From Ignavibacteria bacterium (lineage in GTDB: Bacteria; Bacteroidota; Ignavibacteria; Kapaibacteriales; UBA961), in the NCBI GenBank assembly GCA_016873735.1, contig VGWD01000025.1, positions 1 through 32,764 on the forward strand: DNA of 32,764 nucleotides. The letters run 5' to 3'. The notes below the pieces were generated by a model, which saw only the letters and a program-made list of their open reading frames with translations, searched no databases and had not been told where the DNA came from. How positions within the stretch are numbered: the stretch's first letter is position 1; the number at the start of each line of letters is the position of its first letter. The translations under genes were made by a program, and so were the position numbers. Of this stretch, positions 25,217-32,200 are shown one piece after another.

Positions 25217-28200
25217 TTATGAGCAACCGCTGGTTGTACCGCAGTCTTCGCAGACCGTGCAAGAACCATTTCTCTTCACGCGCATGGAGCTGCAAGTTGA
25301 GCATTGTTCACCGGTATAACCTTTTGCTTTTGCTTCAAAGATTTTTTGTGTTCCATTGCCTGCTGCAACCTTCACTTTTGCAACCGCACTTGCCAAAGCA
25401 GGCTCAGTGACTTCAATTACCTTCTTGCTTGTTTTGGTTGTGAGAACGGGATTTCCTGCAGGTGAAGTTGTTTTTCCATCTTCATCAACGGCTTGCACGT
25501 GAACGAAGTCTGTACGATTGAGATAATCATAACCGAGCGAACGGAAGATATAGTCAAGCACTGAAGTTGCATTTTTGATTGCATCATGACCTTGTACAGG
25601 GCCGGCAGGTTCAAAACGAGTGAATGTGAATGTATCAACCAATTCCTCCAGTGGAATGCCATATTGCAATGCTTTTGATGCCAATACTGCAAAGCAGTTC
25701 AATAGACCTTTGAAAGATGCACCTTCTTTGTACATGTCGATGAAGATTTCACCAAGTGTTCCATCTTCGAATTCACCGGTACGAAGGAAGACTTTGTGTC
25801 CGCCAACATTGCCTTCACGAACGAATCCACGACGTCTCTTTGGTAATCTTCTACGTTCGGCTCTGTGATAAACACGCTCTACTATGCGCTCTTGCACATC
25901 TTTTGGCCCGAGGGTTTCATCAAGTGTATGCTCATCACCCAATACGACGACTTCGTCGAGATCTTCATCATTGGATGCATTGAGAGGTTGTGACAATTTG
26001 GATCCATCACGATAGAGTGCAATTGCTTTCACGCCTGTTTTCCAAGCTTCATGATAGACTTCACCGATTTCATGCACTTTTGCTTCTGCGGGCATATTCA
26101 CTGTCTTTGAAATTGCACCGGAGATGAATGGTTGAGCCGCGGCCATCATGCGAACATGTGCCATGTGCTGGATATATCTTTTGCCTTTTTTGCCGCATTT
26201 GTTTGCGCAATCGAAGATGGCAAGATGTTCATCTTTCAAATGAGGTGCGCCTTCGATGGTCATCGTTCCGCAAATGAAATCATTTGCAAACTCTATTTCT
26301 TCTTTGCTGAAGCCCAATTCCTTGAGCATGTCAAAAGAATAATCATTGAGTTGTTCATCAGTAAAACCAAGTGACTTGCAAAACTCTTCGCCGAATGTCC
26401 ATTTATTGAATGCGAATTTTACATCGAACACATTATCCAATTGACTTTCCACTGCTTCGATTTTATCATCGGTGAAGCCTTTGTCTTTCAGACTTTGCTT
26501 ATTGATTCCCGGACATCCGATCAATGTGCCATGTCCTTTGCAATATTTTTCGATGTCTTCGATTTGTGCTTCGCTATAACCAAGATTAACCAATGCCTTG
26601 TGCACTGACTGATTCACGATCTTGAAATATCCGCCACCGGATAATTTCTTGAATTTCACAATTGCAAAATCAGGTTCGATACCGGTTGTGTCACAATCCA
26701 TGACAAGTCCGATTGTACCTGTTGGAGCAATCACGGAAACTTGAGCATTGCGATAACCGAATTCCTCGCCAAGTGCTAGTGCCTTATCCCAAGCTTGTTG
26801 AGCAGCTTTGATCAAATCTTCCGAAACGAATGTAGGATCTATGCCCATTGGGAAAATGGTAAGATCTTCATAGTCTGCATTCGGAGAATTATATGCCGCC
26901 AAACGATGATTGTGAATCACGCGAAGCATATTGTCTTTATTTGCTTCATAACGAGGGAAGGGCTTTACATCGCGCGCCATTTCAGCACTTGCTGCATAAG
27001 ATTCTCCTGTCATGATGGCGGTGATTGCACCACACATTGCCAATGCCTCGGGTGAGTCATAAGGAATGCCATTGATCATGAGGATTGTACCAAGATTGGC
27101 ATAACCCAAACCAAGTGTGCGGAAATCATAACTGCGTTGAGCAATATTTTTTGAAGGGAAATGCGCCATCAAGACAGAAATCTCGAGTACGATTGTCCAA
27201 AGTCTGGTTGCATGACGGAAATCATCAATGCGTAATGTGCCATCTTCATCGATGAATGTACCAATGTTCAAACTTGCAAGATTGCAAGCTGTATCATCAA
27301 GGAACATATACTCTGAACATGGATTCGATCCATTGATGCGGCCATCAACGGGGCAAGTATGCCATTCATTGATGGTTGTATCATATTGCAAACCAGGATC
27401 TGCTGATTTCCATGCACTGAGATTAATTTTGTTCCAAAGATCACGAGCCTTCACCGTGCGTGCAATGCCATTGCTTGTGCGCCAAGTGAGATTCCAATCT
27501 TCATCGTTTTCAACCGCATTCATGAATGCATTGGTGACACGAACCGAATTATTGGAGTTTTGACCACTTACTGTGATATAAGCTTCGGATTCATAATGCG
27601 TATCGAATATCTCGAAGTTTAGAGAGGTAAACCCTTGCTCAACAAGTGAAAGCACTCGATGGGTATAACTCATCGGAACACCGCGATGCAGTGCATTTTG
27701 AATGAGTATGTTCAAGCGATCATTGACTTTGCGATCGGCCCCATTGGCTACTGCTTCATCAACGATTGCTTTCAAAAATGTGGACGACACCTTGGAGCCA
27801 GCTACGAGGGATGCTACTTTGTCCTCTTCGCGAGCTTTCCATTCGATAAAATCCTCTATGTCCGGATGATCGATGTCCACGATTACCATTTTGGCTGCAC
27901 GCCTTGTGGTTCCCCCTGATTTGATTGCTCCGGCCGCCCTGTCGAAGATCTTGAGGAAACTCATGAGACCGGAAGAGTTGCCTCCTCCGGACAAATTCTC
28001 GCCCTTGCCACGTAGATTCGAAAAGTTCGAACCCGTACCTGAGCCATACTTGAAGATGCGTGCCTCGCGAGTCACCAAATCGAAAATGCCTCCTTCATTC
28101 ACCAAATCATCGGTGACTGATTGAATGAAGCAAGCATGTGCTTGTGCTCGTGAATATGCATCCTGCGAAAGTGTCAATTTGCCTGATTTGGGGTCAACAT

Positions 28201-28678
28201 AATGATGCCCCTGCGCGCTTCCTGTAATCCCATAGGCAAAATGCAAACCCGTATTGAACCATTGCGGTGAATTAGGTGCAGACATCTGCTTGAGGAGCAT
28301 GAACGATATCTCGTCATAAAATGCTTCAGCATCTTTCTTGGAATCGAAATATCCATGCTTCTCGCCCCAATGTCTCCAGCAACCGGCCAGACGGTGAACC
28401 ACCTGACGAATGGAAGTTTCAGATCCGGTGACCTGATTCCCATTTTCGTCCAATTGCGGTGAACCATCCGCATTGTACTGCGGAACGCCGGCTTTACGGA
28501 AATACTTCTGTGCAAGAATATCAGTGGCTACCTGTGACCACTGGGAAGGTACTTCAATATTGTCCATCTGAAATACAGTGGATCCATCAGTATTGCGCAA
28601 TACTGATGAACGCATTGTGTATTCACATTGATCAAATGGGCTCAATCCCGCTTGGGTAAAGCGTCGCACTATATTCAT
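25217..28678 (-). CDS. nrdJ: Adenosylcobalamin-dependent (class II) ribonucleotide reductase, NrdJ
   Basis: A single-chain 1153-aa reductase of the large NrdJ type. The N-terminal substrate-domain text (GSGTGSNFSNLRGKGENLSGGG) and the catalytic NPCSE at residues 452-456 are intact. The middle has the family insert (about 690-830), and the C-terminus ends in a cysteine-rich segment (CSTCSSMRVKR and CTVCEDCGTTSGC), which regenerates the active-site disulfide and may bind metal. No ATP-cone is visible at the N-terminus. It makes dNTP precursors with or without oxygen and needs vitamin B12. A GAAGAGG ribosome site precedes the ATG. I see no cobalamin riboswitch in the leader. It ends with an intrinsic terminator. 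Confidence 0.96.
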   Translation of the reverse strand: MNIVRRFTQAGLSPFDQCEYTMRSSVLRNTDGSTVFQMDNIEVPSQWSQVATDILAQKYFRKAGVPQYNADGSPQLDENGNQVTGSETSIRQVVHRLAGCWRHWGEKHGYFDSKKDAEAFYDEISFMLLKQMSAPNSPQWFNTGLHFAYGITGSAQGHHYVDPKSGKLTLSQDAYSRAQAHACFIQSVTDDLVNEGGIFDLVTREARIFKYGSGTGSNFSNLRGKGENLSGGGNSSGLMSFLKIFDRAAGAIKSGGTTRRAAKMVIVDIDHPDIEDFIEWKAREEDKVASLVAGSKVSSTFLKAIVDEAVANGADRKVNDRLNILIQNALHRGVPMSYTHRVLSLVEQGFTSLNFEIFDTHYESEAYITVSGQNSNNSVRVTNAFMNAVENDEDWNLTWRTSNGIARTVKARDLWNKINLSAWKSADPGLQYDTTINEWHTCPVDGRINGSNPCSEYMFLDDTACNLASLNIGTFIDEDGTLRIDDFRHATRLWTIVLEISVLMAHFPSKNIAQRSYDFRTLGLGYANLGTILMINGIPYDSPEALAMCGAITAIMTGESYAASAEMARDVKPFPRYEANKDNMLRVIHNHRLAAYNSPNADYEDLTIFPMGIDPTFVSEDLIKAAQQAWDKALALGEEFGYRNAQVSVIAPTGTIGLVMDCDTTGIEPDFAIVKFKKLSGGGYFKIVNQSVHKALVNLGYSEAQIEDIEKYCKGHGTLIGCPGINKQSLKDKGFTDDKIEAVESQLDNVFDVKFAFNKWTFGEEFCKSLGFTDEQLNDYSFDMLKELGFSKEEIEFANDFICGTMTIEGAPHLKDEHLAIFDCANKCGKKGKRYIQHMAHVRMMAAAQPFISGAISKTVNMPAEAKVHEIGEVYHEAWKTGVKAIALYRDGSKLSQPLNASNDEDLDEVVVLGDEHTLDETLGPKDVQERIVERVYHRAERRRLPKRRRGFVREGNVGGHKVFLRTGEFEDGTLGEIFIDMYKEGASFKGLLNCFAVLASKALQYGIPLEELVDTFTFTRFEPAGPVQGHDAIKNATSVLDYIFRSLGYDYLNRTDFVHVQAVDEDGKTTSPAGNPVLTTKTSKKVIEVTEPALASAVAKVKVAAGNGTQKIFEAKAKGYTGEQCSTCSSMRVKRNGSCTVCEDCGTTSGCS

Positions 28679-28724
28679 ACGAGTGCCTCTTCAGAATAGG
28701 GTGTTTTTTTGGTAATAATGCTGC

Positions 28725-28745
28725 TTCGGATCGGGGAAATCCGAA
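28725..28745 (-). other. Leader hairpin upstream of nrdJ
   Basis: TTCGGAT and ATCCGAA form a perfect 7-bp stem around CGGGGAA, about 47-67 bp before the nrdJ start. No T-tract follows on the minus strand. It contains the CGGGGAAATCC sequence shared with the fusion nuclease upstream region. Confidence 0.4.
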
Positions 28746-28764
28746 AGGCAAAATACATAAAAAA

Positions 28765-28785
28765 CGTGAATCACGTATATGATTC
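28765..28785. promoter_or_regulatory. Overlapping inverted repeats upstream of nrdJ (possible operator)
   Basis: CGTGA-A-TCACG (28765-28775) is a perfect palindrome. It overlaps GAATCA-CGTATA-TGATTC (28768-28785). Both have regulator-site size and lie about 90-105 bp before nrdJ. Neither matches the NrdR box as I know it. Confidence 0.35.
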
Positions 28786-28870
28786 TTTATGTTATCAAAT
28801 AGAAATTTCAAATACTTATAAGGGAATGGCGTATTCCCGCGATTTTCTTCGTCGGTGATCTGCTGTGGGG

Positions 28871-28983
28871 GGCAAAGACACCAAAACTTTCCTCCCCCGC
28901 TACCCTTTGAAGCGGAATGGCGATTGATTCCAACTTGGAATAATTGCTCGTCGGGAGGGGCAAATTCAATATGCTGCTTTGCC
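28871..28983 (+). ncRNA. Candidate structured RNA with rod-like, 6S-like fold
   Basis: GGCAAAG (28871-28877) pairs with CTTTGCC (28977-28983). After an open region of 13 and 16 nt, CCTCCCCCG (28891-28899) pairs with CGGGAGGGG (28952-28960; one U-G, one mismatch). Inside this, 28920-28947 forms an 11-bp hairpin with one bulge and a perfect ATTCCAA-C-TTGGAAT tip. An outer helix TCTGCTG (28859-28865) with CGGCAGA (29037-29043) is possible. Stem, large central bubble, stem is the plan of 6S RNA. The wobble pairs only work on the plus strand. No strong promoter or terminator is seen, so it may instead be a leader element or chance. Confidence 0.35.
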
Positions 28984-29274
28984 GTGGTTCAAAACTACAT
29001 GTTTCTCCTTCAAGAGCAATACTTGTGGAAAACTTTCGGCAGAAAAAAAGATCATACTTGACTTGCTTTGGATTATTGATTTCATCAGTGTTTCAGGGTA
29101 TTTTTTGTTCAACTGATGGCATGATTTCGTAATATGAATTTGTGTATTTTTTTTCTTGTTCTTGCAGCCGGAAATCTTCCTTGGCTTTGTTCGTCTTTGG
29201 GATGAGGTTTTTGTAGTTTGCCAATGTAAATCGTACAATCCAGCAATGGTTTTTTTAATGATTTCGCAGATATC

Positions 29275-32200
29275 GTGAATTATTCTCTTTTCAATAAGTT
29301 TTCTTGCTCTGTTGCTATGTTTCTTGCATCGATGATGTTGTTTTTTATGACGTTGCATGATGCTCATGGGTATGAATTCGGAAAAAACAAAGTGCAATAC
29401 CGAGATTTCTCATGGAAATTCATCAAGACCAAGCATTTTGATGTGTACTTTCATGAAGACGGAGAATATCTGGCACGCTATGCCGGAATACATGCTGAAC
29501 GTGCATTGAGTTCTGTTCAACAACAATTGAAATATTCCATTTCCAAAAGAATATCCCTCATCATTTATAATTCGCATAATGATTTTCAACAAACCAATGT
29601 TGTGTGGGATTTCATGCCGGAGGGTGTTGGTGGTGTCACTGAATTGTTCAAGAATCGCATCACTCTTCCATTTGAAGGTGGGTATGAGCAATTCAGACAT
29701 GTGATTCATCATGAATTGGTGCATGCAGTATTGAATGACATGTTCTATGGTGGTTCGGTGCAAAGCATGATATCAAATAATATTCGCATGGAATTACCTT
29801 TATGGATGAATGAGGGATTTGCTGAGTATGAGGGGAATGGGGGATATGATACAAAGACAGACATGTTCATGCGAGATATAGCATTGAGTGAATTCATCAA
29901 AGGTTTTGATAATCTCACCGGCTATTATGCTTATCGTGGAGGTCAAGCATTTTATTGGTATGTGTCGGAAAAATACGGTGAAAGAAAAATCGGTGAATTG
30001 CTGAATCGATTGCGTACTTCCGGTACATTGGATATTGCATTCAAAGGATCATTTGGAAAATCAGTTGAAGATTTTTCTGAAGAATGGGTAAGGGAAATGA
30101 AGAAAAAATATCTTCCTGATTTGGATCGCTTTGAAAGCTTGGAAGATATGGCCATTCGCATAACGAATCATAAAAAGGATCATAGTTTTTACAATTCTTC
30201 TCCGGCGCTTTCTCCATCCGGTGATACAATTGCATTCATTTCAAACAGGGATGGACAATTCGGCGTATTCTTACTGAGTTTGAGTAATCGAGAAGAAGAA
30301 CCCGAAGAGCTGATCAATAGCGGGCGCACAGTTGATTTTGAAGAATTGAATGTGCTCACTCCCGGTATTTCTTGGTCTCCCGATGGAAAAAAACTTGCGA
30401 TATCCGCAAAGTCCGGGGGCGAAGATGCATTGTATATAGTGGATGTGAAAAGTGGCGATTATGTGAAACATGAATTCAGCATCAAGACTTTGACCTCCGC
30501 GATTTGGTCTCCTGATGGTGCGACGATTGCATTCATTGGAACAGTGTCTGAACAAACGGATATCTGGCTTTTTGACGTAAAAACGGGAAGCATAATTCGT
30601 GCGACTGATGATGTGTTTTCGGATTCCCATCCTGTATGGTCTCCGGATTCGCGCATCATATATTTTGTGTCCGATCGTGAGGATTATGTGCAAGGACCAT
30701 ATAAGGCAGAAGACTTTGCGATGTGGAGACATGATCCAAGCATATCGGATATTTATCAGGTGGAATTGGAAACAGGATTGATGGGTCGATTGACATTTGA
30801 CCCATCCTCAAAAAAAACTTCTTTAGCCATTACGAACAATGGTGCTTCATTGGTATTTGTTTCCGACAATAATGGCATTGGAAATTTATATGAATTGCAA
30901 TTGGAAGCATCGAAGGTGATACCTCGCACTAATGCACTTAATGGCATCACACAATTATCCATGAGCATGGATGGATCAACATTGGTATTCACTTCTCAAA
31001 ACAATGGTGGATATGATATATTCCAAATGCGTTATCCTTTGGAACGTAGATCTTATGATTCTCTTCCACTCACAAAATTCATGATGTCCAAGAAGGAATC
31101 CGGAACATCGATTGCCGGAAACAAAGAATCAGTGCAATTTTCTCAACCACAAGAACTCGTGGGATATGGAGAGGGAATTGAAGTAGAGTTTTCCCGTCAA
31201 CAATTGATTCAACCTAATCAAGACATCGCGCGCTTTCCTCAACAGGAATCTTCTACTCCGATCACCAATATCATGCGTACTCAAATGGAACATGATATTG
31301 CGGATCCAATGAAAACACCGGCTCAGGAGTATAAAATCACATTTTCAAATGATGTGGTGCTTGCCAATGCGGGAGTAAACACGTTTTGGGGTTATCAAGG
31401 CGTTGCACAAATGCTGTTCAGCGATATGCTGGGGGATCATCAAATCTATCTACAAGCGAATTTGTTTTTTGATATTCGCAATAGCAATTTCTTCTTTTCA
31501 TATTCCTATTTACCTCATATCATTGATTGGCAAATCACTGCAAATCATAATGTTGGTTATGGTTTGGTGAAAAGTGACAATGCACCTTCGAGTTATTTTT
31601 ATCGCTTCAGAAATTATGGACTTGGTGGCATCGCATCATTGCCAACTTCACGTTTTCGTCGATTTGAACTCGGCTTGAATTATATGCATCTCAGTAAAGA
31701 GAACATGGAATTTCCGCAAGAGCCGGTCACTTCGCGCGACATGATTGTTTCTAAGACAAGAATGGTATATGATAATACGATGCCGGGCTGGTATGGGCCT
31801 TCTCAAGGAACGCGATATGCCATGTCTGTACAAGCAGCTCCAAGATTGTCACAGACAGGACTTGGCCTTGCAGTGATGGATCTTGATTTAAGACAATATC
31901 TCACACTCACAGAGAATTTCTTGTTCCTTGCTCTGCGCGGTGCAGGCGGAATGGGGATAAGCACGAATCCTGATCAGCAGTTTTTCTTTCTTGGTGGTAT
32001 AGACAATTGGATCAATCGTTCATTTGCCGGTGGAGCACTTCCCTTCAAAAGTCCGGAAGATTTTGCCTTTTTGAATTATGCTTTGCCACTTCGTGGTTGG
32101 GACGTAAATGAACGCTTCGGTACCAAATATGCAATGATGAATGCTGAATTACGATTCCCTTTGTTCACAGCCCTGCTTGCTGGTCCGGTACCCGTTGTGT

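Follow-up and report, generated by a model that had tools for sequence, protein, structure and literature searches.

We propose, with a probability of about three in four, that positions 28859-29043 of the 32,764-bp stretch of DNA analysed here (the window) belong to the regulatory region of nrdJ on the minus strand, in which a predicted promoter and a probable DnaA site precede the start of a structured mRNA leader. A conserved, structured, non-coding element is present in this interval; an earlier note made a real observation here and misread it as a possible 6S-like RNA of the plus strand. The intergenic region under study is flanked by nrdJ and by the barrel gene, its plus-strand downstream neighbour. 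The features to which we refer below are the following:

25217-28678, minus strand: nrdJ, coding for a class II (B12-dependent) ribonucleotide reductase (RNR) of 1153 aa (NCBIfam NF005736 and TIGR02504; Pfam PF08471 and PF02867).
28679-28985, minus strand: predicted nrdJ 5′ leader of 307 nt (alignment z of −4.41 on the minus and −5.06 on the plus strand, with none of 100 column shuffles reaching these values on either strand).
28703-28765, minus strand: start-proximal long hairpin a, with the invariant loop UUCCCC and an inner helix for which all seven genus genomes show 100% pairing.
28766-28787, minus strand: start-proximal hairpin b, with compensatory changes among the seven genus genomes (hand-aligned arms; MAFFT alignment).
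28848-28985, minus strand: the rod, a structured first part of the predicted leader (91.3% of cells paired over five genomes, four double-changed pairs).
28972-28977, minus strand: GCAGCA in the predicted initially transcribed stretch, where it follows the main promoter in ten of the 14 genomes, with a second copy at 28719-28724.
28985, minus strand: predicted nrdJ transcription start, base A, from the placement of TAnnTTTG at −12 to −5.
28990-28997, minus strand: predicted −7 element TAGTTTTG (TAnnTTTG), the Bacteroidota consensus in excerpts of PMC7366714 and PMC9723704.
29017-29019, minus strand: predicted −33 element TTG, found in 11 of 14 genomes as TTG-N19 (this genus) or TTG-N21 (other genera) before the −7 element.
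29024-29032, minus strand: the DnaA-box-like 9-mer TTTTCCACA, which nine of the 14 family genomes carry in nrdJ sense.

The lineage is known here from metagenome-assembled genomes, and our family sample comprised 14 genomes from four genera, seven of which (the window genome and G001 to G006) make up its own genus; near pairs among the 14 sequences are the window genome and G002, G007 and G010, and G001 and G005. With 261 bases of the region as query, five of 61 genomes gave a match, the genome of origin included (E ≤ 0.001). Against the 14 family genomes, a 611-base query recovered the locus over most of its length in five, its own included, at 72-100% identity, short pieces only in G001 and G005, and just pieces of 16-45 bases with E of 0.04 or more in the remaining seven. 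Identity between the window and G003 was 0.83-0.84 across 28680-28860, compared to 0.86 in the nrdJ coding sequence and 0.81 in the barrel gene, and only 0.46 across 28901-28952. Two properties ascribed to the interval by the earlier note held up. Its GC content is raised (0.51 in 28859-28985, compared to 0.42 in the window and to 0.37 and 0.34 in the remaining intergenic DNA), and no open reading frame is apparent, as the ungapped stretch 28938-29231 has no clear codon periodicity and carries stops in all six frames in each of five genomes; the alignment of 28859-28937 has a one-base gap. A small protein was rejected on the same evidence from 28938-29231.

Promoters recognized by sigma-A (sigma-ABfr) in Bacteroidota are described, in excerpts of PMC7366714 and PMC9723704, as carrying TTTG at about −33 and TAnnTTTG at −7, the latter being placed at −12 to −5 in excerpts of PMC9723704. 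The window contains TTG-N19-TAGTTTTG upstream of nrdJ with the correct spacing, and a −7 element that spans −12 to −5 predicts a start at A 28985 and thus a leader of 307 nt. The likeness to the Bacteroidota sigma-A promoter lies in TTG-N19/21-TAnnTTTG upstream of nrdJ, and the difference in a start that is predicted, in this lineage, by placement. For 12 of the 14 genomes a purine is predicted as the start base, and for G008 and G012 a T. In the direction of nrdJ, the conserved core consists of TTTTCC[AC]CA, then TTG-N19 or N21-TAnnTTTG, then GCAGCA, this last motif being present in ten genomes. Using patterns that were composed after viewing the alignment, and 14 sequences that are related, so that counts against shuffles overstate significance and expectations serve as a guide rather than as P values, we found the strict promoter pattern upstream of nrdJ in eight of the 14 genomes (against an expectation of 0.46 by dinucleotide shuffling), the DnaA-box-like 9-mer or its variant in 12 (0.31 expected) and both box and promoter in order in 10 (0.0 in dinucleotide shuffles). 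A looser promoter pattern matched at the corresponding place in 12 genomes. The strict pattern has a single minus-strand match in the window, which is the predicted nrdJ promoter; in the whole window it is not enriched (three matches on both strands, compared to a shuffled mean of 1.65 and a largest value of 7). Both the box and the −7 element are retained in G001 and G005, with TTG missing at the expected place, and three genomes of genus g2 carry TAnnTTGC, which resembles motif SM5 (TAnnTTGY) of Flavobacterium psychrophilum. As a separate observation, a possible second nrdJ promoter, TTG-N18/19-TAATTTG, appears in the DNA of G003, G004 and G006 that aligns with 28700-28790; it is also followed by GCAGCA, and its TTG is lost in the window.

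Besides TTTTCCACA, the variant TTTTCCCCA stands in nrdJ sense in three of the 14 family genomes. The distance from the box to the −7 element is 35 bp in all seven genus genomes and 46 bp in five of the seven others; every one of the 12 genomes with a sense box has one of these two spacings, which differ by 11 bp, roughly a single turn of the helix. A sense box is absent from two genomes, G008 having none and G012 three inverse copies only. In the latter (L091), the three inverse TTTTCCACA boxes lie within 129 bp of the −7 element, an arrangement more like that of a multi-box promoter. Elsewhere in the window genome, TTTTCCACA occurs once in 37,540 bp from twelve other loci and twice, in inverse orientation, upstream of a dnaA frame (L098:137 and L098:314). 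The two boxes upstream of dnaA are possibly part of an origin or of dnaA control, and the 3151-bp dnaA locus contains no further TTWTNCACA. A replication origin within the window was rejected, for the window has one TTTTCCACA and two TTWTNCACA, below the shuffled mean of 4.7, and dnaA is on another contig; a phage origin was likewise rejected, no phage record matching at E 1e-5. No match to the NrdR box consensus was found in the window, even with three mismatches allowed.

In E. coli, nrdAB codes for a class Ia RNR. Excerpts of PMC8203912 describe DnaA as binding the E. coli nrdAB promoter and activating or repressing it, and by analogy DnaA control of nrdJ is probable. The two systems share a DnaA-box-like site beside the promoter of an RNR gene. 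They differ in that nrdJ is of class II, has a single box in the majority of the 14 genomes, and combines a predicted site of DnaA binding with a Bacteroidota-type promoter and a long structured leader.

Comparison of the 14 genomes from four genera shows that the conserved core, as a predicted control element, belongs with nrdJ and not with the barrel gene, because the two genes lie on separate contigs elsewhere and the core stays upstream of nrdJ. Such separation was found in six genomes of other genera (G007 to G012), in which no frame upstream of the barrel gene resembles nrdJ and most of which have a promoter-like core upstream of nrdJ; the barrel gene was seen next to nrdJ only in the genus of the window genome. 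The earlier note had allowed for a leader of the downstream gene. It was right as to the kind of element and wrong as to the gene, the leader being most likely a minus-strand one that belongs to nrdJ. Another conserved block, 29171-29222, immediately precedes the barrel gene (0.80 of columns invariant in 29171-29210, five genomes), perhaps the promoter of the barrel gene.

The predicted leader carries a structural signal in two of its parts. Measured by column-shuffled RNAalifold over five genomes with 100 shuffles each, the alignment z was −3.70 on the plus and −4.81 on the minus strand for 28850-28970, and −5.81 and −4.67, respectively, for 28700-28800, where 0 of 100 shuffles were as good. 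For 28859-28990, it was −3.24 on the plus strand (0 of 100 as good) and −2.96 on the minus strand (2 of 100). The signal was weak or lacking in the central part of the leader, between 28740 and 28900 (plus and minus strand: −1.35 and −0.30 for 28740-28860; −0.04 and −1.02 for 28780-28900), across the promoter (−1.15 and −0.50 for 28900-29020; 0.08 and 0.11 for 28950-29070) and beyond it (+0.97 to −1.68, weak or none, in 29000-29240). Folded singly on the minus strand, the 14 predicted leaders gave z from −4.49 to +0.17, and default RNAalifold over all 622 columns returned an unfavourable covariation term of +6.08.

Hairpins a and b are kept in all seven genus genomes, and in the MAFFT alignment 92.5% of their cells pair and two pairs are double-changed. 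A G-C to A-U change occurs in hairpin a in G005, and the wobbles of this hairpin fit the minus strand. The hand-aligned arms of the start-proximal hairpins contain additional compensatory changes, and for these hairpins together we counted eight minus-only wobble cells and one plus-only, or 15 and one with the invariant U-G helix included, a count that leans to the minus strand since the arms were hand-aligned from minus-strand folds. The rod consists, on the minus strand, of the helices 28978-28983/28959-28964, 28951-28954/28930-28933, 28909-28917/28895-28903 and 28872-28884/28852-28863. Its 91.3% pairing refers to the minus-strand consensus over the first 143 nt, compared to 78.5% for the three inner helices of the earlier note on that strand. 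The rod model R3 had one match in each of five genus genomes, upstream of nrdJ. Over G001, G005 and the other genera it did not find the rod, save for two matches taken as chance, one in G024 (E 0.0011) inside a reading frame and one in G020 (E 0.0135), where no listed frame resembled nrdJ by eye; across the family, nrdJ can therefore do without the rod. Structured mRNA leaders and riboswitches precede RNR or B12 genes as a class. The nrdJ leader resembles this class in being long and structured and in preceding a B12-dependent gene, and differs from it in having no Rfam family match and a rod found only in one genus.

An alternative shares the promoter half of our explanation and denies just its RNA half, taking the conservation to be that of DNA alone, with promoters or operators of two divergent genes and helices that are incidental inverted repeats. 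We consider it unlikely, if still of some weight. In its favour, the well conserved stretches 28782-28851 (0.80-0.88 of columns invariant in five genomes of the genus) and 28986-29035 have little or no structure signal, and the second promoter-like TTG-N18/19-TAATTTG of G003, G004 and G006 lies over the start-proximal hairpins. However, parts of the leader reach an alignment z of −3 to −5, and this and the compensatory changes in hairpins a and b argue against it.

The strand of this RNA is the point at issue in a second alternative, by which the interval would code for an independent small RNA of the plus strand, other than 6S RNA, or for a plus-strand leader of the barrel gene. The fold is better than that of shuffled sequence, and it is stronger on the plus strand: 28859-29043 reached −59.7 kcal/mol, and dinucleotide shuffles −48.4 ± 4.2 (z −2.69, none of 200 as good), whereas the minus strand gave a z of −1.14 (25 of 200 as good). 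RNAalifold likewise counted 4 to 6 double-changed pairs in the rod on the plus strand and 0 to 1 on the minus strand, and the conserved block at 29171-29222 could be a promoter for the barrel gene. The assertion that wobble pairs fit the plus strand only did not survive the inclusion of relatives. Plus-only and minus-only cells are mixed, numbering 2 and 2 in the 28897-28915 helix, 3 and 1 in 28919-28924/28947-28952, and 0 and 1 in 28873-28878/28941-28946, which leaves a slight excess on the plus strand over the three helices (5 to 4) and does not decide the strand of the rod. Against a plus-strand RNA stand the association of the core with nrdJ and the confinement of the barrel-gene adjacency to this genus, the start-proximal hairpins, which favour a minus-strand RNA, and the position of the rod, which adjoins the minus-strand promoter. 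On balance, we regard this alternative as improbable and the nrdJ leader as the better account of the structure.

The helices from which a 6S RNA had been proposed are present in the sequence. GGCAAAG at 28871-28877 faces CTTTGCC at 28977-28983, CCTCCCCCG at 28891-28899 faces CGGGAGGGG at 28952-28960 with 8 of 9 positions paired and one C·A mismatch, and a hairpin spans 28920-28947. Over five genomes, these pair in 82.9%, 95.0% (5 of 8 pairs invariant) and 71.7% of cells, respectively. The hairpin has four double-changed pairs. The supposed outer helix is not kept (only 62.9% of cells paired over the five genomes, one of its seven pairs forming in just a single genome). The open bubble proved to be no stable feature, for a local GGCAAA/UUUGCC hairpin competes with it and the folds of relatives differ.

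The 6S RNA of this lineage lies elsewhere, and in the window genome it is on a different contig. Over 99 genomes, RF00013 gave matches below the cut-off in six (31.4-41.2 bits), all of them between zapA-like and rny-like frames, as judged by eye from the translations. A search with an rny query, which carries the RNase Y domain PF12072, had matches in 11 of the 14 family genomes, and with the rny loci of G012 and G013 left out (they begin at or near a contig end), the upstream DNA of nine loci, seven of them from the genus, showed zapA, then a 6S-like sequence, then rny in 9 of 9; the zapA of the window genome carries the ZapA domain PF05164. The 6S RNA found by this synteny was confirmed with R1, a covariance model built from seven 6S sequences (A7) outside the genus, which scored 97.7-103.8 bits at the zapA-rny loci of all seven genus genomes and, with filters off, at best 4.9 bits in 28650-29300 of the window. 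RF00013 itself matched nothing in the window genome, the zapA-rny 6S included, and the R1 result is thus the telling one. A lax Rfam scan of three of the seven genus zapA-rny loci returned nothing to E 1, so Rfam 15 misses the 6S RNA there. The divergent 6S RNA lies between zapA and rny at L066:1186-1347 (G000, contig C10) and likewise in L062, L063, L064, L065, L058 and L068.

A stand-alone 6S RNA or a second 6S paralogue on the plus strand is accordingly very improbable: its fold of about 185 nt is rod-like in the single sequence, as in 6S RNA, and some bacteria, such as the Bacillus cereus group (PMC7726162), have two 6S genes, yet the interval matches neither the clade-specific nor the Rfam 6S models (none at the gathering score in the window region, none to E 10 in 28650-29300), another locus of the genome supplies a 6S RNA, the closing helix is lost in relatives, and no strict promoter match lies nearby on the plus strand. 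The 6S identity of 28859-29043 was rejected on these grounds. Other structured RNAs fared no better. SRP RNA, tmRNA and RNase P RNA are each located elsewhere in the genome; the window contains no tRNA or tmRNA; and its only Rfam match at the gathering score is the 5S rRNA, whose gene, at 1-77, is cut by the window start. In 28650-29300, no riboswitch, cobalamin or other, was found to E 10, and the sole Rfam matches to that threshold, a plastid element (E 3.4) and a yeast snoRNA (E 6.4), were taken as chance.

By the explanation that we favour, RNA polymerase with the housekeeping sigma factor would recognize TTG-N19-TAGTTTTG (29019-28990) and start transcription of nrdJ near 28985. DnaA would probably bind TTTTCCACA (29032-29024) just upstream of this promoter and thereby link production of the nrdJ RNR to the state of replication initiation. 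The nrdJ mRNA would begin with a 307-nt leader, the rod coming first and two hairpins just before the start codon, and this leader most likely tunes translation of nrdJ or stability of its mRNA. A literature search on Kapabacteria and ribonucleotide reductase, too narrow to claim novelty, found no paper, and a similarly narrow one on a leader or 5′ UTR of class II ribonucleotide reductase found none among the matches listed.

These results remove a false 6S candidate and point to the location of the 6S RNA of the lineage, undetected by Rfam 15 at the three loci of the genus that were scanned. They also suggest that a DnaA site at the promoter of an RNR gene, known from E. coli nrdAB, may be a feature of class II nrdJ as well, and they mark the structured nrdJ leader as worth probing. 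A bolder reading, to which we give little credence, is that the leader represents a new class of cis-regulatory RNA of the genus, in which the rod and the two hairpins would form a switch that responds to a nucleotide, cobalamin or protein signal and controls nrdJ jointly with the DnaA site at the promoter. If that were true, the supply of dNTPs in this organism would be set by replication initiation and a leader sensor together.
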